This document shows positions 13,195 to 64,000 of a stretch of DNA of 64,000 bases, one piece after another. Source of the DNA: Sideroxydans lithotrophicus (GTDB taxonomy: Bacteria > Pseudomonadota > Gammaproteobacteria > Burkholderiales > Gallionellaceae). The notes beneath the pieces are model-generated. The model was not told the DNA's origin and searched no databases. It saw only the letters and a program-made list of their open reading frames with translations. Where the stretch lies: positions 62,001 to 126,000 of the forward strand of contig DYJI01000005.1 of assembly GCA_020723185.1 (NCBI GenBank). The letters run 5' to 3'. The position numbers were made by a program, and so were the translations under genes. Position 1 is the stretch's first letter. Each line of letters starts with the position of its first letter.

Positions 13195-15366
<2,172 letters not shown>

Positions 15367-48315: not shown

Positions 48316-48754
48316 CCCCATGCCCTGGCGCCTGGAATGGAGTCATGAACTCAGTGTGCATATCCCGGAGATCGATGCCGAACACAGACATTTCATCGAA
48401 CTCATCAATGCCCTGAACGAGGCCATTGCGGAACGCATGTCGCTGAGCGAGGTGCGCAAGCGCATGCAGGATGTCATCGATGATGCAGTGTCCCATTTCG
48501 ACCACGAGGAATCACTGTTCATCGAATGGGGTTACCCCGAAGCAGAACAGCATGCCCGCCAGCACGCAGCCGCAACCAAGGTCTTCACGGATGTCATGAA
48601 GCGTATCGAACGAAGCGAGATGGAGTACGACTGGATCGAAGCTGGTCTGCAGGTCAAACAGTTACTGGTTGCGCACCTGCTGAACGAAGACATGAAATAC
48701 CGGGATTTTTGGCTCGCACAGAATGGCGCGACAGAGATTCTCAAGAAGGACTGA
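48299..48754 (+). CDS. Bacteriohemerythrin
   Basis: A 151-residue four-helix protein that binds O2 at a di-iron site. Ligands fit the family: His in [15 protein letters not shown], His and Glu in [20 protein letters not shown], His in QHAA, and His/Asp in [15 protein letters not shown]. It overlaps the HD-GYP gene by 17 nt and is therefore likely to serve as its oxygen sensor or oxygen-delivery partner. The 3' end overlaps miaA on the other strand by 14 nt. Confidence 0.9.
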
Positions 48755-49688
48755 GGGCAACTTCCGACGCTAACTTCGCCAGAACACTTTCAAAAAGAGA
48801 CGGAGCCAGACAGTCCAGCTCGATGTTCTCCGGCATGCTTCGCAGCCAGGTGAGTTGTCGCTTGGCCAGTTGGCGCGTGGCGGCGATCCCTTTTTCCATC
48901 AACCCGGCCTCGTCGATCTCGCCTTCCAGATACTCCCACGCCTGACGGTAGCCGACGCAGCGCATCGAGGTCATGTCGCGATGCAAGGGATATCTGTCAC
49001 GCAAACCGCGCAATTCATCCACCAGCCCTTCGCTCAGCATCTTCTCGAAACGGGAAGCGATGCGGTCATGCAGCACAGAACGGTCCGAAGGGATGAGGGC
49101 AATGGAGAGGATGTCGTAGGGCAACGGGTCTTGTTCCTGCCGCTTGATCAGCTCCGACATCGGTTTGCCCGAAGCACGGTATATCTCCATCGCGCGCTGC
49201 ACGCGCTGCGTGTCGGTGCTGTGCAAACGCGCGGCAGTCTCGGCGTCGACTGCAGCCAGTCTGGCATGCAACGCTTCGATGCCGTGCCGCGCGATCTCGT
49301 CATCCAGCTCGGCACGCAAGGTCGCATCGGCTTGCGGCAGCGGACTCAATCCCTCGCGCAAGGCCTTGTAGTACAACATGGTGCCGCCCACCAGCAACGG
49401 CACTTTGCCGCGTGAAGTGATGTCTGCCATCAGGCGCAGCGCATCCTTGCGAAACGCGGCGGCGGAGTAGGTTTGCGTCGGATCGATGATATCGATCAGA
49501 TGGTGCGGTGCTCGGGCGAGCGTGGCGGCATCCGGTTTGGCTGTGCCAATGTCCATGTCGCGGAACACCAGCGCGGAATCGACGCTGATCAGTTCCACAG
49601 GCAACTGTTGTGCCAGTTCCACCGCCACGCCGGTCTTGCCGCTGGCGGTGGGCCCCATCAGGAAGATGGCGGGCGGGAGTTTACTCAT
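48741..49688 (-). CDS. miaA: tRNA dimethylallyltransferase
   Basis: MiaA adds a dimethylallyl group to A37 of tRNAs reading UNN codons. The 315-residue protein has the P-loop GPTASGKT (12-19), [31 protein letters not shown] and the C-terminal [15 protein letters not shown]. It is the last of three minus-strand genes (mutL, aroG, miaA); mutL and miaA are often direct neighbours, and aroG lies between them here. Confidence 0.96.
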
Positions 49689-49704
49689 CGCAGCGGGATG
49701 GCGA

Positions 49705-50772
49705 TCAACGTTCTTCCAGTTTGATGCGGCGCTGGCGCACGCCTTCGGCCAGCATGTCCAACACGCGCACGGTGTCGTCCCAACCTATGCAGGCATCGGT
49801 GATGGATACGCCCCTGTTCAGCGGTTTTCCGGGCTGCAGATCCTGACGGCCTTCATTCAGGTTGGATTCGATCATCACGCCACAGATGCGCTCTTCGCCG
49901 TTCGCCAGTTGCGCCGCGCAATCCTGTGCCACCTCGACCTGGCGCAGATACTCCTTGCGGCTATTGGCATGCGAGAAGTCGACCATCACGCGCGCAGGCA
50001 ATCCGGCATTGGCCAGTTCCTTGCCAGCCGCATCGACGGAGGCCGCGTCATAGTTGGGCTGCTTGCCGCCGCGCAGGATCACATGGCAATCCTCGTTACC
50101 GTTGGTGGAGAAAATGGCCGTATGACCGGCCTTGGTGACCGACAGGAAATGGTGCGGGCTGGCGGCAGCCTTGATCGCATCCACCGCGATGCGCAGATTG
50201 CCGTCGGTGCCGTTCTTGAAACCGATGGGGCAGGAGATACCCGAGGCCAGTTCGCGGTGCACCTGCGATTCGGTGGTGCGCGCGCCGATGGCACCCCAGG
50301 AGATCAGGTCGGCCGTGTACTGCGGCGTGACCACATCGAGGAACTCGGTGGCACAAGGAAGACCGAACTCGTTCAGCTCCCACAACAACTTGCGCGCCAG
50401 CCGCAGCCCTTCGTTGATCTTGAAACTGCCGTCCAGATGCGGATCGTTGATCAGGCCCTTCCAGCCCACCGTGGTGCGCGGTTTCTCGAAATACACCCGC
50501 ATCACGATCACCAGATCGGCGGCATGCCGTTTCGCCTCTTCCTTCAGTCTGGCGGCATATTCCATCGCCGCTTCGGTATCGTGGATGGAGCAGGGGCCGA
50601 CCACCACCAGCAGGCGGTCTTCCGCACCGTGCAGGATTCGGTGGATCGCGGCACGCGCGGTGTAGATGGTTTCGGCAGCGGTATCGGTGACCGGGAATTC
50701 GCGCACCAGATGGCTGGGCGGCGTGAGCTCTTTGATCTCTTTGATGCGGACGTCGTCGACGATGTGTTTCAT
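49705..50772 (-). CDS. aroG: 3-deoxy-7-phosphoheptulonate synthase (DAHP synthase), class I
   Basis: The first enzyme of the shikimate pathway joins phosphoenolpyruvate and erythrose-4-phosphate. The 355-residue protein is of the AroF/G/H type: [11 protein letters not shown] with the metal Cys, [44 protein letters not shown] and [11 protein letters not shown]. Which aromatic amino acid inhibits it cannot be told. The ATG at 50772 is chosen; a TTG at 50787 is in frame, and neither has a clear ribosome binding site. Confidence 0.93.
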
Positions 50773-50862
50773 GGCAATAGACTGCAAGTTGTGGCAGGAA
50801 AGGTGCGCATTATGCCTGCTCTTCGGGCATTGCGGGCAGGCGCACAGTGCAACTAATGATGA

Positions 50863-52662
50863 TTATTGGCCGCGCATGAACATCGCATCCAGCTCCGCCA
50901 ACGTTACCTGGAACCAGGTCGGACGGCCGTGGTTGCACTGGTCGGCGCGCTCAGTCTGTTCCATCTCGCGCAGGATGGCGTTCATCTCCGGCAGCGAGAG
51001 TTGCTGGTTGGCGCGCACGGCGGAATGGCAGGCGAGGGTGGCCAGCAGTTCGTTGCGACGTTCGGTCAATGCTCGGGAAGCGCCGAACTCGCGCAGTTCG
51101 TGCAGCACTTCGCGCGCGGCCGCTTCGGCATGCGATTGCTTGAGCATGGCCGGCATGGCGCGCACCGCCAGCGTGTGGGTGGAGATCGGTGCGATGTCGA
51201 AACCGAGTCTGTTCAGCGCATCCTGTTCCTCTTCCACGGTGGCGATGGCAAGCGGTTCGGCCCCGAAGGTGACGGGGATCAGCAGCGGCTGGCTGGGCAT
51301 CTGCTGCGCGTCGAATGCGGCCTTGAGCCGTTCGTACACGATACGTTCATGCGCGGCGTGCATATCCACCACAATCAGGCCTTGCTGGTTCTGGGCGAGG
51401 ATGTAGATGCCGGAGAGCTGGCCGAGGGCGTAGCCGAGCGGATGTTCTTGTGAGGATTGAGGATCGGGGATTGAGGATTGAGAAACGCGGTGAAATTCAC
51501 TGCTATCGCTTACTCGATCCTCAATCCTGGTTCCTAATGACTGACTTTGCGATTCCCAAACGCGATACGTCGCTTGTTGTTCGGCTGCGCCAAAACGCAT
51601 GGGCTGCTGCTGGATCGGTGTGAACGTTGCAGCTGACTCGCGTTGTGTAGCGACGGGTGTTCCCTCCTTGTCAGACATGGTCGCACTCAACGCGTCCTGC
51701 ACACCGTGGAACACGAACTGGTGGATGCCCTGGCTCTCGCGGAAGCGAACCTCGCTCTTGGCCGGGTGCACGTTCACGTCCACCTGTTCCGGCGGCATAT
51801 CGAGGAACAGCACGAAGGCCGGATGGCGCTGATGGTGCAGGATGTCCTGATAGGCCTGACGCACGGCGTGCATCAACACCTTGTCGCGCACGAAGCGCCC
51901 GTTGACGAAGAAGTATTGCTCGTCGCGCGTGGAGCGGGAATAGGCAGGCAGGGCGGCGATACCATACAGATGAAGGGTGCCGATCTCGCGCTCGACGTTG
52001 ACCGCGTATTGGCCGAAGGTCGTGCCGAGGATGGCAGTGATGCGCTGCGCCAGATCGTGCGCGGGCAATTGCCAGATGCTCTTGCCGTTGTGCTGCAAGG
52101 AGAACGCCACATCCGGTCGCGACAGCGCGATGCGCTTGAAGGTCTCTTCGCACCAAGCGTATTCGGTGCTCTCGCTCTTGAGGAACTTGCGCCGGGCGGG
52201 GGTGTTGAAATACAGCTCGCGCATCTCGAAGGTGGTGCCGGGGGCATGGGCGGCAGGTGCCGCTTCGCTTTGAGTGCCGTCGATCGCCTCGACCTTCCAC
52301 GCATGCCCGGCGTCCGCCGTGCGACTGGTCAGCGCGACCTGCGCCACCGCCGCCATGCTCGCCAAGGCCTCGCCGCGGAAACCCATGCTGGCCACGCGTT
52401 GCAGATCCTCCAGCGAGGCGATCTTGCTGGTGGCATGGCGCATCAGCGCCAGCGGCAGTTGCGCTTCGGCGATGCCGCAGCCGTTGTCGCGCACCACCAG
52501 ACGCTTGATGCCGCCACTTTCCAGTTGAACTGCGATCTCGGTCGCGCCTGCATCCAGGCTGTTCTCCAGTAACTCTTTCAGCGCCGAGGCAGGACGTTCG
52601 ATGACCTCGCCGGCGGCGATCTGGTTGATGAGCAGGTCGGGGAGTAACTGGATGGAAGGCAT
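50863..52662 (-). CDS. mutL: DNA mismatch repair protein MutL
   Basis: MutL links mismatch recognition by MutS to downstream nucleases. The 599-residue protein has the GHKL ATPase domain (LINQIAAGEVIERPASALKE, LVVRDNGCGI, HATSKI, GFRGEALASMAAV), a variable linker (about 340-420) and the C-terminal dimerisation domain. The endonuclease motif DQHA(X)2E(X)4E is replaced by VDMHAAHERIVYERL; whether it cuts DNA is uncertain. The linker contains a repeat element (51453-51528). The start is the ATG at 52662, which lies 6 nt after a -10 element, so the message may be leaderless. Confidence 0.95.
   Translation of the reverse strand: MPSIQLLPDLLINQIAAGEVIERPASALKELLENSLDAGATEIAVQLESGGIKRLVVRDNGCGIAEAQLPLALMRHATSKIASLEDLQRVASMGFRGEALASMAAVAQVALTSRTADAGHAWKVEAIDGTQSEAAPAAHAPGTTFEMRELYFNTPARRKFLKSESTEYAWCEETFKRIALSRPDVAFSLQHNGKSIWQLPAHDLAQRITAILGTTFGQYAVNVEREIGTLHLYGIAALPAYSRSTRDEQYFFVNGRFVRDKVLMHAVRQAYQDILHHQRHPAFVLFLDMPPEQVDVNVHPAKSEVRFRESQGIHQFVFHGVQDALSATMSDKEGTPVATQRESAATFTPIQQQPMRFGAAEQQATYRVWESQSQSLGTRIEDRVSDSSEFHRVSQSSIPDPQSSQEHPLGYALGQLSGIYILAQNQQGLIVVDMHAAHERIVYERLKAAFDAQQMPSQPLLIPVTFGAEPLAIATVEEEQDALNRLGFDIAPISTHTLAVRAMPAMLKQSHAEAAAREVLHELREFGASRALTERRNELLATLACHSAVRANQQLSLPEMNAILREMEQTERADQCNHGRPTWFQVTLAELDAMFMRGQ
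51453..51528. repeat. GGATT/AATCC repeat element, copy 2, inside mutL
   Basis: AGGATTGAGGATCG (51453-51466) is the exact reverse complement of CGATCCTCAATCCT (51515-51528), 48 nt apart. More GGATT words lie between (51467-51482). It is read in frame as a Ser/Pro/Gln/Asp-rich part of the MutL linker. Confidence 0.75.
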
Positions 52663-52668
52663 CGGCGG

Positions 52669-52674
52669 ATTATA
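52669..52674 (-). promoter_or_regulatory. -10 element at the mutL start
   Basis: On the minus strand TATAATCCGCCG runs directly into ATG. A start point 7 nt after the -10 would fall on the A of the start codon. There is no room for a Shine-Dalgarno sequence; the -35 is weak. Confidence 0.5.
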
Positions 52675-52741
52675 GCGGATAGACCATGCCAGGACCTGCT
52701 GCAGAGGGGTGCGACAATCCGCCGCGCGACAACATGTCACA

Positions 52742-52770
52742 TTCCCGCCGTCTGCTTCGCTTCCTACAAT
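52742..52770 (+). promoter_or_regulatory. Possible promoter of the TonB/metal operon
   Basis: TTCCCG (52742-52747), 17 bp, TACAAT (52765-52770), then CCGCCCC. Just upstream the heptamer GCGACAA occurs twice, at 52711-52717 and 52726-52732, 15 bp apart, which could be a regulator site. No convincing Fur box was seen. Confidence 0.4.
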
Positions 52771-52809
52771 CCGCCCCGGTTTTCATCAGGGACATTCAGG
52801 GAGAAAGCA

Positions 52810-55089
52810 GTGAAGATACGCAGCAAACAGATCGCAGCCTGTGTGGCATGGGCACTTGTCGCACCGCAGGCATCCTGGGCCGAGATCGGCGCATTGCCGG
52901 AGGTGACCGTCTCCTCCACCACCATCGACGACCGCTTCGATTCCAAGCGCGGGGAACCATCCAATGTGAACATCATCAGCGGCAAGAGTGTGGATGAGCA
53001 ACACGGGACGAACATCGTCGAGGTATTGGAGTCGATACCCGGCGTGACAGCCGAGGTACAGAGCGGCGATTCGGTGAAGATCATGCTGCGTGGTGTGGAA
53101 GCACAACGTTACATGGGCGAGAAGCCGGGGGTGGCCATAGTGATCGACGGCGTGCCGGTACAGGAACGTACGGGGCGCGTGAACATCGACCTCGATAACA
53201 TAGAGTCGATCAAGGTCATCAAGGGTGGCGCTTCCTACCTGTTCGGCGAGGATGCGCTGTCCGGTGCTGTGATCATCACCACCAAGCGTGGTGCCAAGAT
53301 GGCCGGGGTGACCGTGGCAGCCGAAAAGGGCAGCTTCGACTACTACAAAGGCCTGCTGCGCGCAGGCTTTGCAGAAGGCAAGTGGGTCGGACATATCCAG
53401 AAGACCAAGATGCAATCTTCCGGCTATCACGACCAGGGCGACTATGGTCGTGACTATTGGGATGGGAAATTGCAGTACATGCTGGACGAGACCAGCGACC
53501 TGACCTTCGGTTTTGAACATGCCAAGCGCAACAAGGATAGCCACGGCACGGTGACCGGAGTGACCAATGCCTGGATCGATCCGCGCAGCGTCAGTGGAGG
53601 CAAGGACTATGCACGTAAATATGATGTGACGCTGGACAAAGTGAATCTGTCGTATGCCAAGGACATGGATGGCGGCAGCAATCTTCTGGTGAACACCTAT
53701 CTGTTCAAGGATCACACCTACGGCTGGCAGAACCCGAACGGTTTCCTGCGCGATGCCGCTGGGAACTTCCTGTATGGAACGGCCACTGCCAGCGACATGA
53801 AGCTTTTCAATGATGCCTACGTGAGTGGACGCGATACCCGGCAATCGCAGAGCGGGGCCAAGGCTGAATGGCGCAAAGGTGGTGAAGCAGTCGCACTCAT
53901 GGGCGGTCTGGATCTGCAACGTTTCGAAGACGTCACGCTGACCAGGAACCTGGTCAACTACACCTCGCGCAACACGGCAGTCGGGGTCGCCAACCCGCTC
54001 AATCTGGTCGGCGCCATCACCGAGGACAGTGTGTCAACTTCCGACACGCGCGCACTGTATGGCGAACTCAAATGGCAACCGAGCGCCCCGGTGACCGTCA
54101 CTTTCAACGCGCGTTATGACAGTATCGCTTCCGGTTTCGTCAGCAATATCCCGCTGACGGCCACGCAGATCAGCCAAGGACGGGTGACCACCGGCGACAA
54201 GACGTTCAACGTCTGGTCTGAGCGTATAGGCATGAATTACGCGTTCTCGGAAGAACGCGAGCTGTATACCAATCTCTCTACCGGATTCCGCGTACCCACC
54301 GTGTCGCAGCTCTATGGCGGCACCATCACACCCACCGGGACGGTCGCCCCCAATCCGAACCTGCAACCTGAGAAATCCTACAACGCCGAGATCGGCCTGC
54401 GCAGCAAGACCGAGATGATGGGTATCCCGCTGGATACGGATGTGGCGATCTTCCAGGTCGACCGCAAGGATTTCATCCTCAATACCGGCGGCCAGTATCA
54501 GTCGACGCCGGGCGCGACACTGACCAATGCGCTGGAGCAGTACCAGAACATCGGCGGCGTGCGGAACCGCGGACTGGAGGCCGGCATCAAGACCGATAGC
54601 CGCGAAGCATGGTCCGGCGATCTGGCGTATACCTACCTGAACGCCATCTTCACGCGCAACGACACTTACTGGATGTCCATGGGTGTACGCGGCTCATTAC
54701 CTTCGGTGCTGTACAACAACACCGGCAACGTGGTGCCGCGCACGCCCAGGCACAAGCTGAACCTGACTTCGCGCTATCGGCCGATGGACGGCTGGACCTT
54801 CACCGGCGAAATGAATGCGCAGTCCGGCATCTATGCGGACGAGGTGAACATCGTCTGGGTCGGCGGACGCACCACCTACAACCTGATGGTGAACTATGAG
54901 TTCAAGAGGGACGGCAAGATGAAGTGGTCCGCCTTCGCCCGTATCGACAACCTGTTCGACCGTTATTACTACTCCACCATACGCGGCGGCTCGGACGGCG
55001 ACGGCAACGGCGTGTACAACGCCGAAGACATGTCCATCACCGTCAATCCCGGCCGCGTGTGGACGGTCGGCGCATCGTTGAGCTTTTAA
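52810..55089 (+). CDS. TonB-dependent outer membrane receptor 1
   Basis: A 759-residue receptor: signal peptide ending QASWA, a TonB-box-like LPEVTVSST, plug domain (about 45-150, with VEVLESIPGVTAEVQ, IMLRGVEAQRY, VIDGVPVQERTGR, IKVIKGGASYLFGEDALSG and the following AVIITTK) and a 22-strand barrel ending in the aromatic VWTVGASLSF. It takes a ligand across the outer membrane using TonB energy. GTG start behind GGGAGAAA. It heads an operon that carries its own TonB, ExbB and ExbD. The ligand is not readable from the sequence; copper or another metal is inferred from the neighbours. Confidence 0.92.
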   Translation: MKIRSKQIAACVAWALVAPQASWAEIGALPEVTVSSTTIDDRFDSKRGEPSNVNIISGKSVDEQHGTNIVEVLESIPGVTAEVQSGDSVKIMLRGVEAQRYMGEKPGVAIVIDGVPVQERTGRVNIDLDNIESIKVIKGGASYLFGEDALSGAVIITTKRGAKMAGVTVAAEKGSFDYYKGLLRAGFAEGKWVGHIQKTKMQSSGYHDQGDYGRDYWDGKLQYMLDETSDLTFGFEHAKRNKDSHGTVTGVTNAWIDPRSVSGGKDYARKYDVTLDKVNLSYAKDMDGGSNLLVNTYLFKDHTYGWQNPNGFLRDAAGNFLYGTATASDMKLFNDAYVSGRDTRQSQSGAKAEWRKGGEAVALMGGLDLQRFEDVTLTRNLVNYTSRNTAVGVANPLNLVGAITEDSVSTSDTRALYGELKWQPSAPVTVTFNARYDSIASGFVSNIPLTATQISQGRVTTGDKTFNVWSERIGMNYAFSEERELYTNLSTGFRVPTVSQLYGGTITPTGTVAPNPNLQPEKSYNAEIGLRSKTEMMGIPLDTDVAIFQVDRKDFILNTGGQYQSTPGATLTNALEQYQNIGGVRNRGLEAGIKTDSREAWSGDLAYTYLNAIFTRNDTYWMSMGVRGSLPSVLYNNTGNVVPRTPRHKLNLTSRYRPMDGWTFTGEMNAQSGIYADEVNIVWVGGRTTYNLMVNYEFKRDGKMKWSAFARIDNLFDRYYYSTIRGGSDGDGNGVYNAEDMSITVNPGRVWTVGASLSF

Positions 55090-55097
55090 GGATGGCC

Positions 55098-55973
55098 ATG
55101 AAAATCCTCTATTCCATATGTCTGCTCGCGGCGTGCGCCGGGACAGCCGTTGCCGCAGAAGTGCAACACGACCACGGTGCCATGATGCATAGCCAGTCAA
55201 AGCTCTGGACGCAACTGCCGCTGCTCAAGCCGCGCATGAAAGGGCAGGACATAGCATCGCGCAGCGTCAGCATCCTGCCGCAGAACATCGCGGCGGCGGC
55301 GATCGAAGCCTGGTCCAACGATCTGCATGATGCCAACGGACATCGTCAGTTATCCATGGAGATGGGCGGCGCGCCGCTGGACAAACCCGCCACGGGCGGT
55401 TTCCAGATGCTGACCGCGCGTGAAGTGCAGGGCGATACAGTGCGCGTCGCATCCACCGTGCATTATTTCGGCGAACGCGGCGGCAAGAATCCGACCGCCA
55501 TGTTCGACCAGGTCAAGCACGAGCTGGAGATCGTGCCGCAGCCTTATCCGCGCGAACATTCCCGCTACCGCGCCAATGAGGACTGGCAGTTCGCCGTGCG
55601 TTTCAAAGGCCAACCGCTGGCAGGCCATAAGGTCGTGCTGGAGACATCGAACGGCAGCCGCGCCGAATTCATGACGGATGCGGCAGGCGTAGCGAACGTA
55701 CATGTGCCGGACGATTTCAACACTGAAACAGTGCAAAGCAAGGCGGGGAGCCATGGCATGCGACGCGGCGCCGATTTCGTGCTGGCCGTGTCGCATGCCG
55801 ATGGCGGCCAGCAATACTTGACCGCCTTCAACAGCAGCTACGGCGAAGATGCCTACAGCAACCGCAGCCTGACCATGGGGCTGGGCTTCATGCTGCTCGG
55901 CATGCTGGGCGCCGCACCGTTGCTGCGCAAGCGCCAGGCTGCCGCCAAGAATGAGGAGCCAAGCAATGCTTAA
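55098..55973 (+). CDS. Periplasmic DUF4198-like protein with C-terminal membrane anchor
   Basis: A 291-residue protein with a signal peptide (ILYSICLLAACAGTAVAA), a His/Met-containing mature start (VQHDHGAMMHSQ) and a beta-rich domain with HELEIVPQPYPR, FKGQPLAGHKVVLETSNGSR and FMTDAAGVANVHVPDDF, as in DUF4198 proteins of metal-uptake loci. One hydrophobic segment near the C-terminus (MGLGFMLLGMLGAAPLL) followed by Arg/Lys anchors it. It sits 8 nt behind receptor 1 (AAGGA before the ATG at 55098; ATG at 55092 also possible) and overlaps the next gene by 8 nt. Confidence 0.78.
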   Translation: MKILYSICLLAACAGTAVAAEVQHDHGAMMHSQSKLWTQLPLLKPRMKGQDIASRSVSILPQNIAAAAIEAWSNDLHDANGHRQLSMEMGGAPLDKPATGGFQMLTAREVQGDTVRVASTVHYFGERGGKNPTAMFDQVKHELEIVPQPYPREHSRYRANEDWQFAVRFKGQPLAGHKVVLETSNGSRAEFMTDAAGVANVHVPDDFNTETVQSKAGSHGMRRGADFVLAVSHADGGQQYLTAFNSSYGEDAYSNRSLTMGLGFMLLGMLGAAPLLRKRQAAAKNEEPSNA

Positions 55974-57015
55974 GAATCTATTCCCCAGGCTGGCGCGTTT
56001 CCGCTTCACCGTGCAGATCATCATGCTGTTCGTCACCGTGTACGGCGGCGCATTGCTCGGCAGTTACACCGTGGATCGCATCTCCAAAGCATTGCCGTCG
56101 CTCTCTTGCGCCTACGACAAGATGACCGGCGACCACTGCATCCTCATCGTCAACCAGCACCAGTTGCACCACCGCGCCGGTGCCGCGCTGGCCAAGGCGG
56201 GCGATGTCGCGCTGAACGTGTTCATCCCCACGTTGATGTCGGTAGGCGTGTTCTTCCTGTTCTTTTTCTTTTTGAACAAGGCGTTCTGCGGCTGGGTCTG
56301 TCCGCTGGGCACGGTGCAGGAATTGCTCTACAAGATCGGTCGCCGCATCGGCCGTCCGCTCAATCGTTTCAAGCAGGAGAACGTCGGCAAAGTACGTCCG
56401 GTCAAGTGGTTCATGTTGCTGGTGCTGGTGCTGGGTCTGCCGACACTGGCGGGCATGGGCACCGTCGCCAACGAACTGGGCGACCCGTTCTGCCAGGTCT
56501 GTCCCTCGCGCATCGCCACCACCTTGTTGACCGCCGATACCGAACAGCTCGCCGTGCGCACCGGCACGGGCATCAACTTCTTCCTCGGCGCGCTGGGCAA
56601 TGCCCTGTTCGGCTTCATCATCATAGCCGCACTGGCGGTGCGTCAGCCGTTCTGCCGCATCTGCCCGCTGCTGTCGTGGAACGCGCTGTTCCAGAAACTG
56701 TCACCGATGCGTTTGGTTAAAAAGGACGCGCATGACAAATGCGCCAAGTGCGGCGTGTGCGAAAAAGCCTGCCCGATGGACATCCACGAGATCGGTACCT
56801 CGTTCGGCAGCAAAGCCTTCCACGAAGACTGCACGCTGTGCGGACGCTGCGCGGAATATTGTCCGGACGACGATGTGATCCAGCTCAAGTTCTTCGGCTT
56901 CAAACTGTTCGGCTCCTCGCGCGACTATTACAAGGCGCGCGTGAAGTTCGAAACGCCGGAAGGCCAACCGAAGAAACGCGTGATCCCCATCCTGCGCGCC
57001 AAAGAAAATGCATGA
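55966..57015 (+). CDS. NapH/CcoG-like membrane polyferredoxin
   Basis: A 349-residue inner-membrane iron-sulfur protein. About four to five membrane segments surround two CX3CP motifs (FCGWVCPLG, and FCRICPL with FCQVCPS before it), followed by a cytoplasmic 2[4Fe-4S] ferredoxin domain (CAKCGVCEKACPM and CTLCGRCAEYCPDD). NapH, NosR and CcoG share this build and pass electrons across or to the periplasmic side; CcoG reduces Cu(II) to Cu(I). Here it stands between a periplasmic metal-type protein and a DsbD-like protein, so a metal reductase role is a reasonable inference. AGGAG lies 7 nt before the ATG at 55966. Confidence 0.85.
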   Translation: MLKNLFPRLARFRFTVQIIMLFVTVYGGALLGSYTVDRISKALPSLSCAYDKMTGDHCILIVNQHQLHHRAGAALAKAGDVALNVFIPTLMSVGVFFLFFFFLNKAFCGWVCPLGTVQELLYKIGRRIGRPLNRFKQENVGKVRPVKWFMLLVLVLGLPTLAGMGTVANELGDPFCQVCPSRIATTLLTADTEQLAVRTGTGINFFLGALGNALFGFIIIAALAVRQPFCRICPLLSWNALFQKLSPMRLVKKDAHDKCAKCGVCEKACPMDIHEIGTSFGSKAFHEDCTLCGRCAEYCPDDDVIQLKFFGFKLFGSSRDYYKARVKFETPEGQPKKRVIPILRAKENA

Positions 57016-57655
57016 GTGGCAACTGTCGCAGCAGACCACGCTGTTCACCGTGTGGCTGCTCGGTGCCTCGCTGGGCCTGACCGCCTGCACCGCCACCTGC
57101 CTGCCGTTCATGGGTACCTGGATATTGGGACGCGGCGGCAGTCAGATGCAGGCGCTGCGCGATACCAGCCTGTTCGTCAGCGGCCGCATCCTGGCTTACA
57201 CGATGCTGGGGGCGCTGGCGGCAGCGGCGGGCAGTTGGCTGTCGCAGGCGATGAAAGGTGGTAGCGGCAATCTGTTCATCGGCGCCGCGTCCATCGCCGC
57301 CGGGCTGTGGCTGTTGCGCACCGGCAAGACGCATGCGCCGTGCGGGGTGTCCAAGCGGGTGGGCAGTACACCGCCTTTGTTGCTCGGCTTCTCGCTCAGC
57401 CTTACGCCGTGCGCACCACTGGCATCCTTGCTCGCCGTGTGTGCGGCGGCAGGCAGCGTGCAACTGGGCATGGCCAACGGCGTGATGTTCGGATTGGGTG
57501 CGGCGCTGACACCGCTGCTGATACTATTGCCGCTGATCAGCCTGCTGGGCAAACAGTTGCGCGAGAACCGCGACTGGCTGACGCGCTGGATACGCTGGGG
57601 CGCGGCGGCGGTGCTGATCGTGCTGGGATTGCGCCGCATCCTTCTCTTCCTTTGA
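57008..57655 (+). CDS. DsbD/UreH-like six-helix membrane protein
   Basis: A 215-residue protein with about six hydrophobic segments of the cytochrome c biogenesis/DsbD transmembrane (UreH_2) family, often named sulfite exporter TauE/SafE family. Conserved Cys lie in TACTATCLPFMGTW near residue 28 and in LTPCAPLASLLAVC near 140, the positions used by DsbD/CcdA for redox transfer. Homologues sit next to ccoG and Cu-ATPase genes in cbb3 oxidase clusters. It overlaps the polyferredoxin gene by 8 nt. Thiol or metal transfer across the membrane is the likely job. Confidence 0.8.
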   Translation: MHEWQLSQQTTLFTVWLLGASLGLTACTATCLPFMGTWILGRGGSQMQALRDTSLFVSGRILAYTMLGALAAAAGSWLSQAMKGGSGNLFIGAASIAAGLWLLRTGKTHAPCGVSKRVGSTPPLLLGFSLSLTPCAPLASLLAVCAAAGSVQLGMANGVMFGLGAALTPLLILLPLISLLGKQLRENRDWLTRWIRWGAAAVLIVLGLRRILLFL

Positions 57656-57677
57656 ACCGATCGAACAAGTCTGCCTG

Positions 57678-59765
57678 ATGAAACGTAGCTGTCTGTTATT
57701 CGCCTTCCTCCCGCTTCTGGCCTGCGCCGAAGACCGACCCGCCCTGCAAGAGATCACCGTGACCGGCAAGCAGGATGATGTGGCGGCACGCCGTGATTCC
57801 ACCACGCAAAAGGTGATCGTCGGCCGCAAGGACATCGAGAACATGGGCGTGATGACCATCGGCGAGGTGCTGGGCAAGTTGCCGGGCGTGGAAGTCAAAG
57901 GGGATGGTCACCGCGCACGCGGCATGTCGCGCGACAGCGTGCAGATATTGGTGGACGGCGAACGTCCGGCGGGCGGCTCGCGCATCGTGGCAGGCGTGGT
58001 CGGTCGCCTGCCCGCGGGGGAGCTGGAGCGCGTCGAGATATTGCGCGGTTCGTCCGCGGAATACGGCGGCGCAGCCTCCGTGACCGTCAATCTGGTGATG
58101 AAGAAACCGGTCAGCAAACGTGCCACGGCCGTGAAAGTCGCCGTTGGCATGAACGGCGACGAACCGACCGGCCAATTCACCTGGACCGAGAACGGCGGCG
58201 AGGGCGGTTTCGCCTGGACGCTGCCGATCACGCTCAACATGCATCGCCGACCTGCCGGCAGCGTGATCGAACGTCGCAACGAAAGCGCAGGTGTCACGTT
58301 ATTGAACGAACAGGACAAGGACGAAGGCCTGTTCACCTTCCGCGAATTCGTGCTCTCGCCGCGCCTGACCTGGAAGCAGGGCAGCGACAGCCTGACCGTC
58401 GCGCCCCTGTTGTTCGACGGACTGGGCAAGCGCAACAGCGACATGACGCAGACGGCCGCCAGTCCGGCAAGCAGCAGCACTTTCGTGGTCAACGGCGACC
58501 GCAGCAGCCGCGAGGAGATGCGCCGCCGCCTGCAACGTCTGCGCGTGGAAGGCGAGAAACATCTGGGCGACAGCAAACTGACCGGACGCATCTCGCTCAA
58601 CCACGGCACACGTGATGTGCATGTCGTGCGTCTGTCGCATGACGCGGCAGGCACCGCCGATTCAAACACGGATGACACCGCCAGCAACGAGAACGAGCGC
58701 AGCATGGCGTTCAGGCTGGACAGGCCGCTGGGCGAGCAGCATCTGCTGGCGGTCGGGCTGGAACACGCCTCTCTGAACAGTAGCGATACGCAGACCTTGT
58801 CCGGCGTGACGTCGGGCTATGCCAACAGCGAGAAGCAGAACATCCTGTGGTTGCAGGACGACTGGATGCTGAGCGACAAGACTACGTTCACCTACGGCCT
58901 GCGCGGCGAACGCGTCGATCTGGACACCGGCAGCAGCACGCAACAGCACGGACAGGTGATGCCTGCACTGGCGATACGCTGGGCACCGCAGGAACAATGG
59001 CTGCTGCGTTCCTCGCTGGGTGCAGGGTTGAAGATGCCGAGACTGAGCGAGATCAGCGATGCCGCGACGCTGAGCGTGGCGGCGAACACGCCGACGGAAG
59101 CCGACACACGCGGCAACCCGCACCTGCGGCCCGAACGCAGCGTGAACTTCGAAGCGGTGCTGGAGCGTTATCTGCCGGACAACACCGGTGTGCTCGGACT
59201 GAATCTCTATGCGCGCAGCACGCAGGATTTCACCGAACGCCGCGTACAACTGGAAGGTGCGCGCTGGGTGGACAGACCGCAGAACGAGGGCAGCGCCCGC
59301 CACTGGGGCTGGGAGCTGGACGGCAAGGTGCAGACCGATGCCTGGGGCTGGAAGGGCGCGACCGTCAAAGCGCATCTGACCTTGCCGCATGCCACGGTGG
59401 ACGATGCACGCTTGGGCATCTCGCGCATGGCACGCGACACGCCCAAATACATCTTCTCGGCCGGACTGGACGAGAACCTGCCCAGGTTCAAGTCCAGTTA
59501 CGGCGTGTCGCTGCAACTGTCGGGACGTAGCGTGACCGACATCCCGGGCGAGATGTATGCCGTGTCCGACGCGCGCGCCACGCTGGACGGCTATTGGCTG
59601 TACAAGCTGTCGCCCGTGTTCAATCTGCGCACCACCGCAAAGAACCTGCTGGCAGCGGATTCGGTGCAGCGCACGCGCTTCACGAACGGCGGCGATACCT
59701 ACACATTGTCCAGCCGCAGCACCGGCCATCGTTCCTTGCTGGTGACACTGGAGGGGCGCTGGTAG
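57678..59765 (+). CDS. TonB-dependent outer membrane receptor 2
   Basis: A 695-residue receptor with a short signal peptide (MKRSCLLFAFLPLLACA), TonB-box-like LQEITVTGK, a plug domain (GEVLGKLPGVEVKGDGHRARG, VQILVDGERPAGG, RVEILRGSSAEYGGAASVT) and a barrel ending LLVTLEGRW with C-terminal Trp. It differs strongly from receptor 1, so it is not a recent copy. The plug has no extra N-terminal signalling domain. It lies 22 bp after the DsbD-like gene and 1 nt before tonB. Confidence 0.9.
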   Translation: MKRSCLLFAFLPLLACAEDRPALQEITVTGKQDDVAARRDSTTQKVIVGRKDIENMGVMTIGEVLGKLPGVEVKGDGHRARGMSRDSVQILVDGERPAGGSRIVAGVVGRLPAGELERVEILRGSSAEYGGAASVTVNLVMKKPVSKRATAVKVAVGMNGDEPTGQFTWTENGGEGGFAWTLPITLNMHRRPAGSVIERRNESAGVTLLNEQDKDEGLFTFREFVLSPRLTWKQGSDSLTVAPLLFDGLGKRNSDMTQTAASPASSSTFVVNGDRSSREEMRRRLQRLRVEGEKHLGDSKLTGRISLNHGTRDVHVVRLSHDAAGTADSNTDDTASNENERSMAFRLDRPLGEQHLLAVGLEHASLNSSDTQTLSGVTSGYANSEKQNILWLQDDWMLSDKTTFTYGLRGERVDLDTGSSTQQHGQVMPALAIRWAPQEQWLLRSSLGAGLKMPRLSEISDAATLSVAANTPTEADTRGNPHLRPERSVNFEAVLERYLPDNTGVLGLNLYARSTQDFTERRVQLEGARWVDRPQNEGSARHWGWELDGKVQTDAWGWKGATVKAHLTLPHATVDDARLGISRMARDTPKYIFSAGLDENLPRFKSSYGVSLQLSGRSVTDIPGEMYAVSDARATLDGYWLYKLSPVFNLRTTAKNLLAADSVQRTRFTNGGDTYTLSSRSTGHRSLLVTLEGRW

Positions 59766-59766
59766 C

Positions 59767-60417
59767 ATGTCGGCCCTTGTTCTCAATCTGCCGCTGACCT
59801 ATATGCACGCGTTACACGACGCGACACAGGAATCGCCCTGGTACGAAAAGCTGACCGTGGTCGGCATCGTGGTGCTCGCGCATCTGCTGTTGTTCGTGTT
59901 CTGGCTGGCACAGCCGGAACCGCCGCAGGCGGCGATCAACGAGATGTCCATCTCCTTCGCCAATGTGCAGATGCAGCAGGCGGATGTCGCGCCGCAACCC
60001 GAGATCAAGCCCGAGCCGAAACCGGAACCCAAGCCGCGCGTGTTCGAACCGGAAGCACCGCAGTCCTCCGCCGAGCCGGTGGAGGAGGTCGCCGCACCGC
60101 CGGTGCAGACACCGCCTTCCCCTGTGCAACTGGATGCCGAGCCGGACTACCGCGCCGACTATCTGAACAATCCGCGCCCGCCGTATCCGCTGGTGGCGCG
60201 GCGCATGGGATATCAGGGCAAGGTGGTGTTGAATGTCGAAGTGTTGGCCGAGGGCAGGGCCGGCGAAGTGAAACTGCAGACCAGCAGCGGCTACGACATC
60301 CTGGACAACGCCGCGCTACAGACAGTCAAGACCTGGAAGTTCTCACCCGCCACGCGCTTCGGCCAGCCGGTCACGCAATGGTTTCTGGTGCCGATCAAAT
60401 TTTCTTTAGAGGAATAA
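59767..60417 (+). CDS. tonB: TonB energy-transducing protein
   Basis: A 216-residue protein with one N-terminal membrane anchor (about residues 29-48, VVGIVVLAHLLLFVFWLA), a Pro/Glu/Lys-rich periplasmic stretch (EIKPEPKPEPKPRVFEPEAP) and the C-terminal TonB fold with NPRPPYPLVARRMGYQGKVV and TVKTWKFSPATRFG. It spans the periplasm and opens TonB-dependent receptors. The ATG at 59767 follows the receptor 2 stop by 1 nt; an ATG at 59803 is also in frame. A dedicated TonB beside its receptors is expected to serve both. Confidence 0.93.
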   Translation: MSALVLNLPLTYMHALHDATQESPWYEKLTVVGIVVLAHLLLFVFWLAQPEPPQAAINEMSISFANVQMQQADVAPQPEIKPEPKPEPKPRVFEPEAPQSSAEPVEEVAAPPVQTPPSPVQLDAEPDYRADYLNNPRPPYPLVARRMGYQGKVVLNVEVLAEGRAGEVKLQTSSGYDILDNAALQTVKTWKFSPATRFGQPVTQWFLVPIKFSLEE

Positions 60418-60422
60418 GCCGC

Positions 60423-61079
60423 ATGAACGAACTCTTTTCTGTTTCATCCCCTATCGTTTCGGGCACGCTGCTGCTGCTGATCGTGCTGTCCATCGCGACC
60501 TGGTCCATCGCCTTGTTCAAACTGTGGAAGCAATATGAATCGCGCCAGCACGACCAGCGATTCAACCGCGAGTTCTGGGCTGCACGGGAGTGGAGCGGGG
60601 CGGAAAAGGTCAGCACATCGAGCAAAGGCGACATCGCCAGACTGGCACAGGCCGGATTCTCAGAATTGAAGAACCTGAATTCCGCACAGCAGGACCTGAA
60701 ACATTCCGGCGCACCGCAGGACGTGCTGGAGCGCATGCTGCGCCAGCAGTTGCAGAACATCCAGCGCTATCACGAGCGCGGTCTGGCCGAGTTGGCCAGC
60801 ATCGGTTCCACCGCGCCGTTCATCGGTCTGTTCGGCACCGTATGGGGCATCATGCATGCCCTGCAGGACATCGGCCGCACCGGTTCCGCTTCGCTGGATG
60901 TGGTGGCCGGCCCTATCGGCGAGGCGCTGATCGCCACCGCCATCGGCATAGCAACCGCGCTGCCTGCGGTACTGGCCTACAACTTCTTCCTGCGTCGCCT
61001 CAAGGTGCATGTGACCGACCTGGAGAACTTCGCGCACGACTTCATGCGTCTGGCGCAGAAGCATGATTTCAAACTGTAA
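60423..61079 (+). CDS. exbB: ExbB-type proton channel subunit
   Basis: A 218-residue MotA/TolQ/ExbB protein with three membrane segments (near residues 14-33, 120-145, 160-185) and the family core LASIGSTAPFIGLFGTVWGIMHAL and GPIGEALIATAIGIATALPAV. With ExbD it uses proton flow to energise TonB. The ATG at 60423 lies 5 nt after tonB, with GAGG upstream. Confidence 0.95.
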   Translation: MNELFSVSSPIVSGTLLLLIVLSIATWSIALFKLWKQYESRQHDQRFNREFWAAREWSGAEKVSTSSKGDIARLAQAGFSELKNLNSAQQDLKHSGAPQDVLERMLRQQLQNIQRYHERGLAELASIGSTAPFIGLFGTVWGIMHALQDIGRTGSASLDVVAGPIGEALIATAIGIATALPAVLAYNFFLRRLKVHVTDLENFAHDFMRLAQKHDFKL

Positions 61080-61089
61080 AGGGTGAGCC

Positions 61090-61503
61090 ATGTCTTTCGG
61101 TAACTCTTCGCAGCAGGACGATGGCAGCATGATGAGCGAGATCAACGTCACACCGCTGGTGGACGTGATGCTGGTGTTGCTGGTGGTGTTCATCATCACC
61201 GCACCCTTGCTGGCACCGCAGTCGCTCAAGATCAACCTGCCCAAGACCGACGCAGTGCAACAGAACGACAAGCCGCAGCAAGTCAGTCTGGTGGTCGATG
61301 CGCAGGGCAATATCGAAATGGACAAGAAGCCGGTGAACGACAGCGAATTGGCCGAGATGCTGCGCACCCGATCCGCCGATCCGCAGTTCCAGTTGCAGAT
61401 CGAAGCGGACAGCGCCGTGCCCTATGGACGCGTGGCGACCTTGATGGCGCTGGCGCAGAAAGCCGGTGTCGCCAAGCTTTCTTTCATCACCCTATCCAAA
61501 TAA
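61090..61503 (+). CDS. exbD: ExbD-type proton channel subunit
   Basis: A 137-residue protein with one membrane segment: MSEINVTPLVDVMLVLLVVFIIT includes the essential Asp of the ExbD/TolR family, followed by the periplasmic domain (INLPKTDAVQQN, VPYGRVATLMALAQKAGV). It completes the TonB-ExbB-ExbD complex and follows exbB by 10 nt. Confidence 0.95.
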   Translation: MSFGNSSQQDDGSMMSEINVTPLVDVMLVLLVVFIITAPLLAPQSLKINLPKTDAVQQNDKPQQVSLVVDAQGNIEMDKKPVNDSELAEMLRTRSADPQFQLQIEADSAVPYGRVATLMALAQKAGVAKLSFITLSK

Positions 61504-61561
61504 GGTCGTCATGGATAGACTGCGCCCCGTCGGTCAGCCCTATCACTTCAAGGAGATATTC

Positions 61562-62002
61562 ATGAATCGCAGAGACCTGTTGCTTGGCGCTGTAGCCATG
61601 GCCGCCGCCGGTACGGCATTCGGTGCCAGCCACGAACATATGGATATGGGGCATGAGCACCATGTCATGGGTACGGTAAACGACAAGCTCATCGCAGCCG
61701 CAGCAGATTGCGTGTCCAAGGCGAACATCTGTTTGCAGCATTGCATCGTTTTGCTGGGACAGGGCGACAAGAGTATGGCGAACTGCGCGCAGTCTTCCAG
61801 TCAGGTGATCGCCATGTGCGGCGCTTTGCAGCAGATGGCAGCCGCGGATTCCAAATATCTGCCGCAATTGGCCAAGGTCTGCATGGACGTGTGCAAAGTC
61901 TGTGAAGAAGAATGCAAAAAGACCGAGAAACACCCCGAGTGCAAGGCTTGCAAGGAGTCCTGCGCAGCCTGTTACGCGGAGTGCAAGAAGATCGCCGCCT
62001 GA
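61562..62002 (+). CDS. Cys-rich four-helix copper-storage-like protein (Csp1/DUF326 type)
   Basis: A 146-residue protein with a twin-arginine type signal ([21 protein letters not shown]), a His/Met-rich start of the mature chain ([14 protein letters not shown]) and 14 Cys spread along four helices, among them [17 protein letters not shown] and [15 protein letters not shown]. Csp1 of methanotrophs stores many Cu(I) ions on such Cys in the core of the helix bundle. Export of a folded protein by Tat fits this. AAGGAG lies close upstream. It is the last gene of the TonB operon, 58 bp after exbD and before a terminator. Confidence 0.88.
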
Positions 62003-62029
62003 TTATCCCTCTTCGCAGCGAGGTTCCAT

Positions 62030-62051
62030 GGCACGCTTCGGCGTGCCTTTT
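62030..62051 (+). terminator. Terminator of the TonB/metal operon
   Basis: GGCACGC / GCGTGCC around a TTCG tetraloop, followed by TTTTC. It closes the run of nine genes that begins at 52810. Confidence 0.85.
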
Positions 62052-62090
62052 CGTTACATCAATGGGCTGGGGCGGGGCGCAAAGCTCGTA

Positions 62091-62096
62091 TATAAT
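62091..62096 (+). promoter_or_regulatory. pntA promoter -10
   Basis: TATAAT followed by CGCAAGCC, about 66 nt before the pntA start. The -35 is weak. The leader contains a short GC-rich hairpin GCGCCCGGAACAACCGGGCG (62114-62133). Confidence 0.6.
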
Positions 62097-62162
62097 CGCA
62101 AGCCAATTTCAGTGCGCCCGGAACAACCGGGCGTTTCAGTATGCGGTTTACAGGAGGGTTAC

Positions 62163-63740
62163 ATGCGTATTGGAATTCCTGCGGAGATCAGTGCAGGCGA
62201 AAAACGCGTTGCGACGGTACCCGAAGTCGTAGAGAAGCTCATCAAGCTGGGTTTCCAGGTCGCGGTCCAATCGGGTGCCGGGGATCAGGCTAATTGCGAT
62301 GACGACAGCTATCGCGCTGCCGGTGCCGAGATAATCGGCGGCGCAGCCGAACTTTGGGCAGGTTCCGACATCGTGTTCAAGGTGCGCGCACCGAGCAAGG
62401 AAGAAGTCGCCCTGATGCGCGAAGGCAGCACGCTGGTGAGTTTCATCTGGCCGGCGCAGAACCCCGAACTGATGCAGCAACTGGCTGCAAAGAAAGTCAC
62501 CGTGCTCGCCATCGACGCCTTGCCGCGCATGCTGAGCCGCGCCCAGAAGATGGACGCGCTGACCTCGCAGGCCGGTGTCGCCGGTTACCGCGCCGTCATC
62601 GAGGCCGCCAATGCCTTCGGTCGTTTCTTCAACGGTCAGATCACCGCCGCGGGCAAGGTACCGCCGGCCAAGGTGTTCATCGCCGGTGCCGGTGTGGCCG
62701 GTCTGGCGGCCATCGGTACCGCAGCCGGCCTAGGTGCCATCGTACGTGCCAACGACACCCGCGCCGAAGTGGCCGACCAGGTCAAGTCGCTGGGCGGGGA
62801 GTTCGTGAAGGTCGACTATGAGGAAGAGGGCGGCGGTGGCGGCGGTTACGCCAAGGTGATGAGCGAAGGTTTCCAGCAGGCCCAGCGCGAGATGTACGCC
62901 AAACAGGCCAAGGAAGTCGACATCATCATCACCACCGCGCTGATCCCCGGCAAACCCGCGCCTCGACTGATCACCGCCGAGATGGTGAAGAGCATGAAAG
63001 CCGGCAGCGTCATCGTCGATATGGCGGCCGAGCAAGGCGGCAACTGCGAGTTGACCGAACCCGGCAAGGCCGTGGTCAAACATGGCGTGACCATCGTCGG
63101 ATATACCGACCTGAACAGCCGACTGGCCAAGCAGTCTTCCACACTGTACGGCACCAATCTGTTCCGTCTGGCCGAAGAGTTGTGCAAGAACAAGGATGGC
63201 GTCATCGACGTCAACATGGAAGACGATGCCATACGCGGCCTGACCGTCATCAAGGATGGCGCGATCACCTGGCCCGCGCCCGCACCCAAACTGCCCGCCG
63301 CTGCGGCCAAGCCTGCCGCCAAGCCGGCTCCCGCTCCCGCCGCAAAAGGCCACGGTAGTACGGGTGCGCCGGCCTCTGCGGGAACCATAGTCGCCCTGTT
63401 CAGCATTGCCGCGCTGCTGTTCCTGCTCATCGGCGCGTATGCCCCGGCCGAGTTCCTCGGACATTTCACCGTGTTCGTGCTGGCCTGTTTCGTGGGTTAC
63501 ATGGTGGTTTGGAACGTCACGCCGGCCCTGCATACCCCGTTGATGAGCGTCACCAACGCGATCAGCAGCATCATCGCCCTCGGTGCGCTGGTGCAGATCG
63601 CGCCGCCGACGCTGTTCGGCCTGGATCGCCCGGACGACTGGATACGCGGGCTGGCCGTGGTGGCGATCGCGCTCACTGCGGTGAACATGTTCGGCGGCTT
63701 TGCGGTGACCAAGCGCATGCTGTCGATGTTCCGTAAATAA
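62163..63740 (+). CDS. pntA: NAD(P) transhydrogenase subunit alpha
   Basis: PntA with PntB moves hydride between NADH and NADP+ at the cost of the proton gradient. The 525-residue protein is the fused form: NAD-binding domain ([51 protein letters not shown]), an Ala/Pro-rich linker (about 375-405) and a C-terminal part with four membrane segments. AGGAGG lies 5 nt before the ATG; longer frames reach back into the terminator. pntB follows after 8 nt. Confidence 0.95.
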
Positions 63741-63748
63741 GGATTTTC

Positions 63749-64000
63749 ATGATGTCTGAAAGTTTGGCTACTGTCTCTTATATCGGCGCGACGATCCTGT
63801 TCATCCTCAGTCTCGGTGGTCTTTCCAACCCCGAGACTTCACGTCGCGGCAACCTCTACGGCATGCTCGGCATGACCATCGCCGTGCTGGCCACGGTGTT
63901 CGGGCCGCGTGTCACGATGGCCGGCCTGCCCTGGATCATCGGCGCGATGGTGGTGGGCGGCAGCATCGGTCTGTACGCCGCACGCAAGGTGCAGATGACG
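63749..64000 (+). CDS. pntB: NAD(P) transhydrogenase subunit beta (5' part)
   Basis: The first 84 codons are visible. The protein begins with hydrophobic segments (VSYIGATILFILSLGGLSNP, then YGMLGMTIAVLATVF and LPWIIGAMVVGGSIGLYAA) and the loop NPETSRRGNLYGM, as in PntB. AAGGA precedes two adjacent ATG codons (63749 and 63752). The gene continues beyond the window. Confidence 0.93.
   Translation, partial: MMSESLATVSYIGATILFILSLGGLSNPETSRRGNLYGMLGMTIAVLATVFGPRVTMAGLPWIIGAMVVGGSIGLYAARKVQMT

Follow-up and report, generated by a model that had tools for sequence, protein, structure and literature searches.

A nine-gene TonB operon with a recurrent polyferredoxin core and a Csp1-family protein, probably a copper uptake system

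Import and reduction of copper in bacteria are poorly understood, and the described copper receptors are few. The nearest described system to the one presented here is CrtA (BfrG)-PepSY_TM of Bordetella, in which, according to the available excerpts, a TonB-dependent receptor dedicated to copper serves respiratory oxidases, stands together with a redox-type membrane protein and in some species has its own TonB/ExbBD (PMC12914433). Another TonB-dependent receptor system, OprC/NosA, is linked to copper for respiration or denitrification, and the membrane polyferredoxin CcoG (RdxA, FixG) reduces Cu(II) and is needed for the cbb3 oxidase (both from excerpts of PMC7558416). DUF4198 is found next to a transmembrane electron-transfer protein, sometimes with a TonB receptor, in the PepSY/DUF2271/DUF4198/ApbE clusters (PMC8238504, in excerpt), and Csp1 of Methylosinus trichosporium (PDB 5FJD) is a Tat-exported four-helix copper storage protein. 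Here we describe an operon which has likenesses to each of these, in a stretch of 64,000 nucleotides from Sideroxydans lithotrophicus (contig DYJI01000005.1); the whole of this stretch is called the window below. With a probability of roughly 0.6 the operon as a whole serves TonB-driven acquisition of copper for respiration.

The operon consists of nine consecutive genes at 52810-62002, identified from open reading frames (ORFs), the DNA itself and family searches (TBDR, TonB-dependent receptor; TM, transmembrane):

52810-55089, plus strand: TBDR1, TonB-dependent receptor of 759 residues with a GTG start; PF00593 and PF07715 above cut-off
55098-55973, plus strand: DUF4198-like protein of 291 residues with a His-rich N-terminus, a PREH motif and a TM-like C-terminal segment; PF10670 30.7 bits (cut-off 34)
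55966-57015, plus strand: NapH-like polyferredoxin of 349 residues; Fer4_5 49.5 bits, napH_ 63 bits (below the cut-off of 213)
57008-57655, plus strand: DsbD_2 (CcdA-like) membrane protein of 215 residues; PF13386 66 bits (cut-off 24.9) and PF02683 35 bits, both above cut-off
57678-59765, plus strand: TBDR2, second TonB-dependent receptor, 695 residues; PF00593 111 bits
59767-60417, plus strand: TonB; PF03544 84 bits, TIGR01352 above cut-off
60423-61079, plus strand: ExbB (TolQ/ExbB family); PF01618 123 bits, the tolQ and exbB models both under cut-off
61090-61503, plus strand: ExbD (TolR/ExbD family); PF02472 106 bits, the tolR and ExbD models under cut-off
61562-62002, plus strand: Csp1-family Tat-type copper storage protein of 146 residues with 14 Cys; TIGR04401 145.9 bits (cut-off 100), PDB 5FJD at E 4.4e-22
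62030-62047, plus strand: terminator-like hairpin with a TTCG loop, its stem read in the sequence

The distances between neighbouring genes are, in this order, 8, -8, -8, 22, 1, 5, 10 and 58 bp (negative values are overlaps), so the nine tightly packed same-strand genes of a preliminary description of this DNA are borne out with a maximum distance of 58 bp. The TTCG-loop terminator of that description is seen as a terminator-like stem, and the 81-nt stretch around it folds mildly better than shuffles (z -1.6). Its TonB, ExbB, ExbD and two TonB-dependent receptors are likewise recovered by Pfam.

Three of these genes, coding for the DUF4198-like protein, the polyferredoxin and the DsbD_2 protein, form a core which recurs widely, usually together with a TonB receptor. 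Named genomes were scanned with the polyferredoxin only, and the best 80 of at least 154 confirmed relatives were kept; these are the 80 named loci below. They are titled Sideroxydans, Gallionella, Ferrigenium, Sulfuricella, Thiobacillus, Rhodocyclaceae, Azonexus and Denitromonas, among others, and also Candidatus Thiodiazotropha, Solemya velum symbiont and Magnetococcales. A DUF4198-like gene lies directly upstream in 78/80 and a same-strand DsbD_2 gene follows downstream in 79/80; in loci found by the polyferredoxin alone this puts the gene set beyond chance, and it confirms as recurrent the triplet for which the preliminary description had proposed a co-occurrence search. A receptor similar to TBDR1 or TBDR2 is present in 67 of the 80, a TonB, ExbB or ExbD gene in 48 and Csp1 in 8. 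Some of the misses are explained by contig ends; the 43 loci with more than 6 kb on each side contain the DUF4198-like gene in 43 cases, DsbD_2 in 42, a receptor in 39, TonB/ExbB/ExbD in 29 and Csp1 in 7.

In a class-wide draw 15 of 369 genomes, the one studied here included, have the polyferredoxin at E 1e-60. All of the other 14 loci have same-strand DUF4198-like and DsbD_2 genes (the copies in L240 and L241 are weak and divergent); 12 have a same-strand receptor, 10 a TonB/ExbB/ExbD gene and none has Csp1. Of 300 genomes of the order, 18 have the polyferredoxin at E 1e-20, and in 16 of these the match reaches E 1e-120 or better; among 72,556 plasmid records the same threshold of E 1e-20 gave a single distant match, in Sulfurovum. 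The preliminary description knew of no described system with the full set; a search of the open-access literature, most subscription papers being outside its scope, found no description of this gene set, and the conserved core appears to be undescribed.

Some of the loci contain additional genes. In L035 (6580-15449) and L036 (6588-15631) a divergent core, with a polyferredoxin 31-33% identical to ours, is found with TonB/ExbBD, a receptor and DsbD_2, and the gene run also holds a 2-hydroxyacyl-CoA dehydratase-like double-cubane protein and an activator ATPase (names by reading). A BNR-repeat-like protein and a CPPC thioredoxin-like protein are encoded behind a receptor in L061 (14279-16059), L026 (13419-15145), L043 and L023, and this pair precedes the TonB/ExbBD genes of the operon in several loci; the BNR-repeat-like protein of L061 has CECC and CPHH motifs.

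The Csp1 gene is an accessory of the core. Among the 18 near-relative loci L037-L054, of which 5 are short of 6 kb on one side, 8 have it next to the core, and its position is of three kinds: after ExbD, in the interval from DsbD_2 to TonB, or ahead of TBDR1. Within the order Csp1 is above cut-off in 5/16 core-bearing and 15/284 other genomes (p 0.002, descent ignored). In three of these five (G083, G035, G251) the Csp1 gene and the operon are on different contigs; G221 carries two Csp1 genes, of which one adjoins the operon and the other is elsewhere. A genome of the same genus (G024, locus L203) has a Csp1 remnant of 41 residues behind ExbD (C10:286989-287099), which suggests that the storage gene was lost there. 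Judging from the 8/80 named and 0/14 class-wide loci, storage by Csp1 is not general to the system. The storage proposed in the preliminary description is thus right in so far as a true member of the Csp1 family is present in the operon, not as a property of the system; the finding that description had named as speaking against it, a Csp gene never linked to homologous loci, did not turn up, as Csp is linked repeatedly, within one family.

This Csp1 protein is the surest assignment of the operon. It scores above the TIGR04401 cut-off, aligns to the structure 5FJD, and its Tat-type start (NRRDLLLG) and 14 Cys can be read in the sequence as described before; copper storage is its predicted function.

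The polyferredoxin had been called NapH/CcoG-like. NapH is indeed nearest, the score with the NapH/MauN model TIGR02163 being that of a relative and not of a member. Identity with CcoG was rejected: the CcoG model TIGR02745 misses the operon gene at E 0.001 and finds two other genes of the genome (466 and 435 bits), and with the homologues of the relatives G187 and G106 it reaches merely E 1.6e-4 and 9.3e-4. Seven overlapping hydrophobic windows were merged by us to four TM segments, and the charge pattern suggests that residues 32-83 and 167-205 are on the periplasmic side (numbers follow P0001, start Met omitted). C47, C57, H64, H68, C175 and C178, all within these predicted loops, are invariant in 28 sequences; four divergent polyferredoxins, two of them only 31-33% identical, keep C47, C57, H64, C175 and C178 but not H68. 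These residues together with the analogy to CcoG make a periplasmic metal-reduction site fed by cytoplasmic iron-sulfur clusters plausible, and the polyferredoxin is probably the reductase of the operon. The earlier idea of reduction at the inner membrane is plausible, though the likeness to CcoG does not extend to membership. An AlphaFold2 model of the polyferredoxin with a mean predicted local distance difference test score of 54.8 was insufficient for a fold search.

The membrane protein described earlier as DsbD/UreH-like belongs to the Pfam family DsbD_2. Its residues C27, C31, C112 and C135 are kept in 96-100% of 80 sequences, and four conserved Cys would fit a role as thiol electron relay. 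The DUF4198-like protein stays under the gathering cut-off of PF10670 and is a distant relative of the family. Each residue of its PREH motif (residues 151-154; the numbering of the conservation alignment is 3 higher) is kept in 88-99% of 78 sequences, and with a TM-like segment at residues 258-276 it is probably anchored; of the earlier "periplasmic DUF4198-like" the relatedness stands, at a score below cut-off, the free periplasmic location probably not.

None of the NCBIfam receptor models, those for siderophores and cobalamin included, reaches its cut-off with TBDR1 or TBDR2, so that siderophore or cobalamin signatures, which according to the preliminary description would speak against copper, are not seen at that level. 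M102, H195, H245, H302 and H648 of TBDR1 are kept in 88-100% of 26 sequences, the copy of the window included. No one of its 14 PDB matches is named BfrG or CrtA, the CrtA sequence itself not having been compared. TBDR2 has near relatives in only some of the loci.

The operon shares with other loci a palindrome upstream of its first gene, here in two directly abutting copies:

52711-52725, strand not assigned: RegA-type palindrome, upstream copy GCGACAATCCGCCGC, 2 mismatches to GCGACA-N3-TGTCGC
52726-52740, strand not assigned: second RegA-type palindrome, on the downstream side, GCGACAACATGTCAC, 1 mismatch

A RegA consensus fits 23 upstream regions with a mean of 0.87 mismatches against 2.68 in shuffles, and the form GCGACA-N3-TGTCGC was derived from these same 23 regions. 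With at most 2 mismatches and at most 300 bp upstream it is found in 40/67 loci against 140/3227 control windows; in the 44 loci which were not seen during derivation of the motif the figures are 19/44 against 95/2520. The published RegR/RegA box is GNGRCRTTNNGNCGC (PMC5506826, in excerpt); GCGACATTTTGTCGC of locus L047 fits it exactly, and many copies have other spacers. RegA is a candidate for binding to the palindrome. According to excerpts of PMC4064962, RegR of Bradyrhizobium controls the nos genes and copCAB.

Consensus sites for Fur, FNR, NikR, Zur, CueR, ModE and CopR were tried on the 23 upstream regions and rejected. The consensus strings were compared with single-base shuffles, and the matches to Fur, NikR, Zur and CueR were not clearly better than in the shuffles: for Fur the mean was 8.22 against 8.57 mismatches, with a best of 6 both ways, and for NikR 4.61 against 4.42.

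In the genome as a whole there are 41 sites with at most 1 mismatch (40 distinct flanks) and 45 for the reversed pattern, that is, no genome-wide excess of the palindrome. Only 4 of the 41 are intergenic, and 3 of these are in promoters. One is that of the operon; the second (L132 4245) is ahead of the cbb3-oxidase gene ccoN at 4357 (TIGR00780, 657 bits, cut-off 583); the third (L136 4042-4056) is in the gap that separates a RegB/RegA-like pair from a divergent TonB-copper receptor (TIGR01778, 745.7 bits, cut-off 472). The fourth intergenic site (L135 4038-4052), a good palindrome followed by ATTCC, stands between convergent genes and has no obvious target. A script assigned the sites, and for six of them the ORF list was read as well: those in L125 and L126, which the script had placed in ORFs of 415 and 971 residues, were overruled after reading the flanking genes, and those in L119, L128 (second site), L213 and L216, of low coding score, were put inside genes. 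Genes near the sites of this genome are presumably sprT-like, cyaY, infA and purE. All four TIGR01778 receptors at E 1e-100 in 21 genomes, our own included, have an upstream palindrome, with 1, 1, 1 and 2 mismatches.

RegB-like genes are present in 8/80 and RegA-like genes in 7/80 of the named loci, and four loci (L058, L077, L080, L083) have the kinase gene and the operon itself in divergent orientation. The RegB-like kinase of our genome contains GGSTNPF, which we take to be a quinone motif. The RegA-like gene is at L136 2113-2643, minus strand. The kinase beside the TonB-copper receptor (L136 2643-4004, minus strand) has a long loop rich in His or in both His and Met, DAHAQHASPISQIAPDQHTGHDD, as has that of L224, HAQHEPAAAMQGMDHSQHDMSAM; in the L023 copy the loop is short. 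The composition of the loop hints that it may sense metal.

Copper is the best-supported metal for the operon. The earlier claim of copper gains from the TIGR04401 assignment, from the palindrome common to the operon, a TonB-copper receptor and ccoN, and from copper genes in the relatives; its caveat concerning nickel and iron stands, as both are live rivals. As to the copper genes, counts of which stand without a background rate, receptors of OprC type (at least 45% identity) are found in 4/80 named loci (L064, L065, L070, L075), NosL genes in L082 and L094 (by Pfam) and in L069 and L104 (by clustering), and a CopA-type ATPase in L082, joined on clustering by five further loci. The receptors of L064, L065 and L070 and one in L029 are above the TIGR01778 cut-off, and NosL and CopA-type genes occur in some of the Rhodocyclaceae loci.

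A mechanism can be formulated from these elements. The two outer-membrane receptors, driven by their own TonB/ExbB/ExbD, would carry copper, as such or in a complex, into the periplasm, where the anchored His-rich DUF4198-like protein would take Cu(II) and hand it over to the inner membrane. The polyferredoxin would lead electrons from cytoplasmic iron-sulfur clusters to its invariant periplasmic Cys/His site, reduce Cu(II) to Cu(I) and thereby release the copper from its ligand, and the CcdA-like DsbD_2 protein would give thiol reducing power which keeps the Cys ligands reduced. In this lineage Csp1 may be a store of Cu(I) for assembly of the cbb3 oxidase. Transcription would be set by a RegB/RegA-type redox system which also governs ccoN and the TonB-copper receptor.

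The most specific form of this proposal is that of a widespread, undescribed reductive copper importer, in which a periplasmic C47-C57-H64-H68 plus C175xxC178 site of the polyferredoxin strips and reduces the copper delivered by a TonB receptor. The CcdA-like protein would hold this Cys site as well as Csp1 in the reduced state, and a RegB-type kinase, through its His/Met-rich periplasmic loop, would couple all of it to copper and the quinone pool. In such detail we regard the proposal as tentative, possible rather than likely. If the copper reading of the operon holds, bacterial copper metabolism gains a second family of polyferredoxins, and copper import is tied to a respiratory redox regulator. 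Denitrifiers, oxidisers of iron or sulfur and symbionts of animals carry the core, and some of the bearers are isolates, so that periplasmic copper reduction can be tested directly; among the isolates are Parazoarcus communis SWub3 (L064) and Azonexus fungiphilus DSM 23841 (L106), the latter with no receptor found next to its core.

Several observations weigh against copper acquisition for respiration. TBDR1 and TBDR2 had to be rejected as TonB-copper receptors of the OprC/NosA type, TIGR01778 being absent among their 20 and 18 hits at E 0.001. Only 2 of the 14 class-wide loci (L228, L229) have any palindrome with at most 1 mismatch, that of L228 being exact and immediately upstream of the first gene of the operon, and RegA-type boxes are called degenerate in excerpts of PMC5506826, where they missed known sites in Acidithiobacillus. 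The palindrome is ahead of ccoN in 5/24 loci (control 8/1440), so the link to ccoN is not general, and no homologue of the ccoN of this genome was found in the 80 named loci at E 1e-20. The RegB/RegA-like pair, although giving the best hits, is under the cut-offs of NF033792 (243 of 350 bits) and NF033791 (203 of 250 bits). The characterised DUF4198 protein IsDUF4198 binds Ni(II) at 18 nM and showed no stabilisation by Cu(II) (PMC12537917, in excerpt), and DUF4198 genes of Caulobacter and Alteromonas respond to iron in the excerpts available. An ORF which reads as PepSY_TM lies upstream of the receptor and the DUF4198-like gene in L034 (15106-16734, minus strand); it was noted in this locus only, the relatives not having been searched for PepSY or DUF2271. 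PepSY_TM proteins occur, as far as the excerpted sources tell, both in iron systems and in CrtA systems. Finally, a NiFe hydrogenase (PF00374, E <1e-50) is found in 15/16 core-bearing against 51/284 other genomes.

This last association is an argument for uptake of nickel for the hydrogenase, which the genome studied here also has. The receptors with TonB would then import Ni(II), the DUF4198-like protein would be its carrier, as the properties of IsDUF4198 and the location of DUF4198 genes near TonB receptors and NikR (PMC12537917, in excerpt) would allow, and Csp1 would be a lineage-specific bystander. NosZ (nitrous oxide reductase), the corresponding copper enzyme in this comparison, is present in 10/16 core-bearing genomes (weak in G083) against 38/284 others, a weaker link than that of the hydrogenase, and with the control being stronger it is not counted for copper; among hydrogenase-bearing genomes NosZ is commoner with the core (10/15 against 17/51, p 0.035). 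These tests ignore descent, and as lifestyle and descent may yield both associations neither of them settles the metal. It should be noted that Ni(II) requires no reduction, so that the polyferredoxin is hard to account for, that none of the 80 named loci has a homologue (E 1e-20) of any of six ORFs from the hydrogenase region of this genome, and that the NikR consensus fits no better than shuffles. The palindrome common to a TonB-copper receptor and ccoN, and the binding of Cu(I) by Csp1 (PMC7558416, in excerpt), also speak for another metal, and we consider nickel rather unlikely.

Iron uptake with periplasmic reduction, in which Fe(III) would arrive as a complex and be reduced by the polyferredoxin and DsbD_2 in the manner of the PepSY/DUF2271/DUF4198 clusters, would agree with the several hosts named as iron oxidisers and with the best receptor models of TBDR1, which are of heme and siderophore types and all under cut-off. 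According to the excerpted accounts Fur controls DUF4198 genes in Caulobacter, those next to DUF2271 in Alteromonas respond to iron, and DUF4198 is frequent in PepSY-like clusters (PMC8238504); the ORF of L034 would be of the same kind. This is at variance with the Fur consensus, barely better than shuffles in the 23 upstream regions, and with the nine proteins of the operon, in which Pfam found neither PepSY nor DUF2271. Csp1, the TonB-copper receptors and the NosL and CopA-type genes indicate copper, and we hold iron to be improbable.

Detoxification, in which the module would reduce and park surplus copper, could call on Csp1 as a store and on the rise of Csps at high copper in a methanotroph (PMC7558416, in excerpt), but is very improbable as receptors with their own TonB/ExbBD would import copper and make the excess worse, and the palindrome is common to an importer and an oxidase.

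The surroundings of the operon can be described briefly. It is flanked by a divergent mutL-like gene on one side and a pntA-like gene on the other (names by reading), and no Rfam riboswitch matched at gathering score in 48000-64000 of the window. A gene for a CopA-like P-type ATPase (by reading) is at 13195-15366 on the minus strand, about 37 kb from the operon. The genome is of 2.6 Mb in 12 contigs; its closest named relatives by the polyferredoxin are metagenome-assembled genomes of Sideroxydans and Gallionella, and the host is a relative of freshwater iron oxidisers.

The operon can be compared with the known systems one by one. A true TIGR01778 member is encoded elsewhere in the same genome behind the same palindrome, whereas TBDR1 and TBDR2 are not members, and we know of no OprC description in which the three core genes accompany the receptor. 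The CrtA operon has PepSY_TM where the present one has the polyferredoxin and DsbD_2; in the excerpts of PMC12914433 it is regulated by the upstream frame CruR and no Csp1 is mentioned. The polyferredoxin is of a family separate from CcoG, of which the genome has two true genes besides. In the PepSY clusters the transfer is flavin-based and proposed for iron (PMC8238504, in excerpt), and here an iron-sulfur polyferredoxin and DsbD_2 take that place. The Csp1 protein differs from that of Methylosinus trichosporium in having its 14 Cys and a gene within a TonB operon. The operon is thus a variant of TonB-linked metal uptake, with copper as the probable metal.

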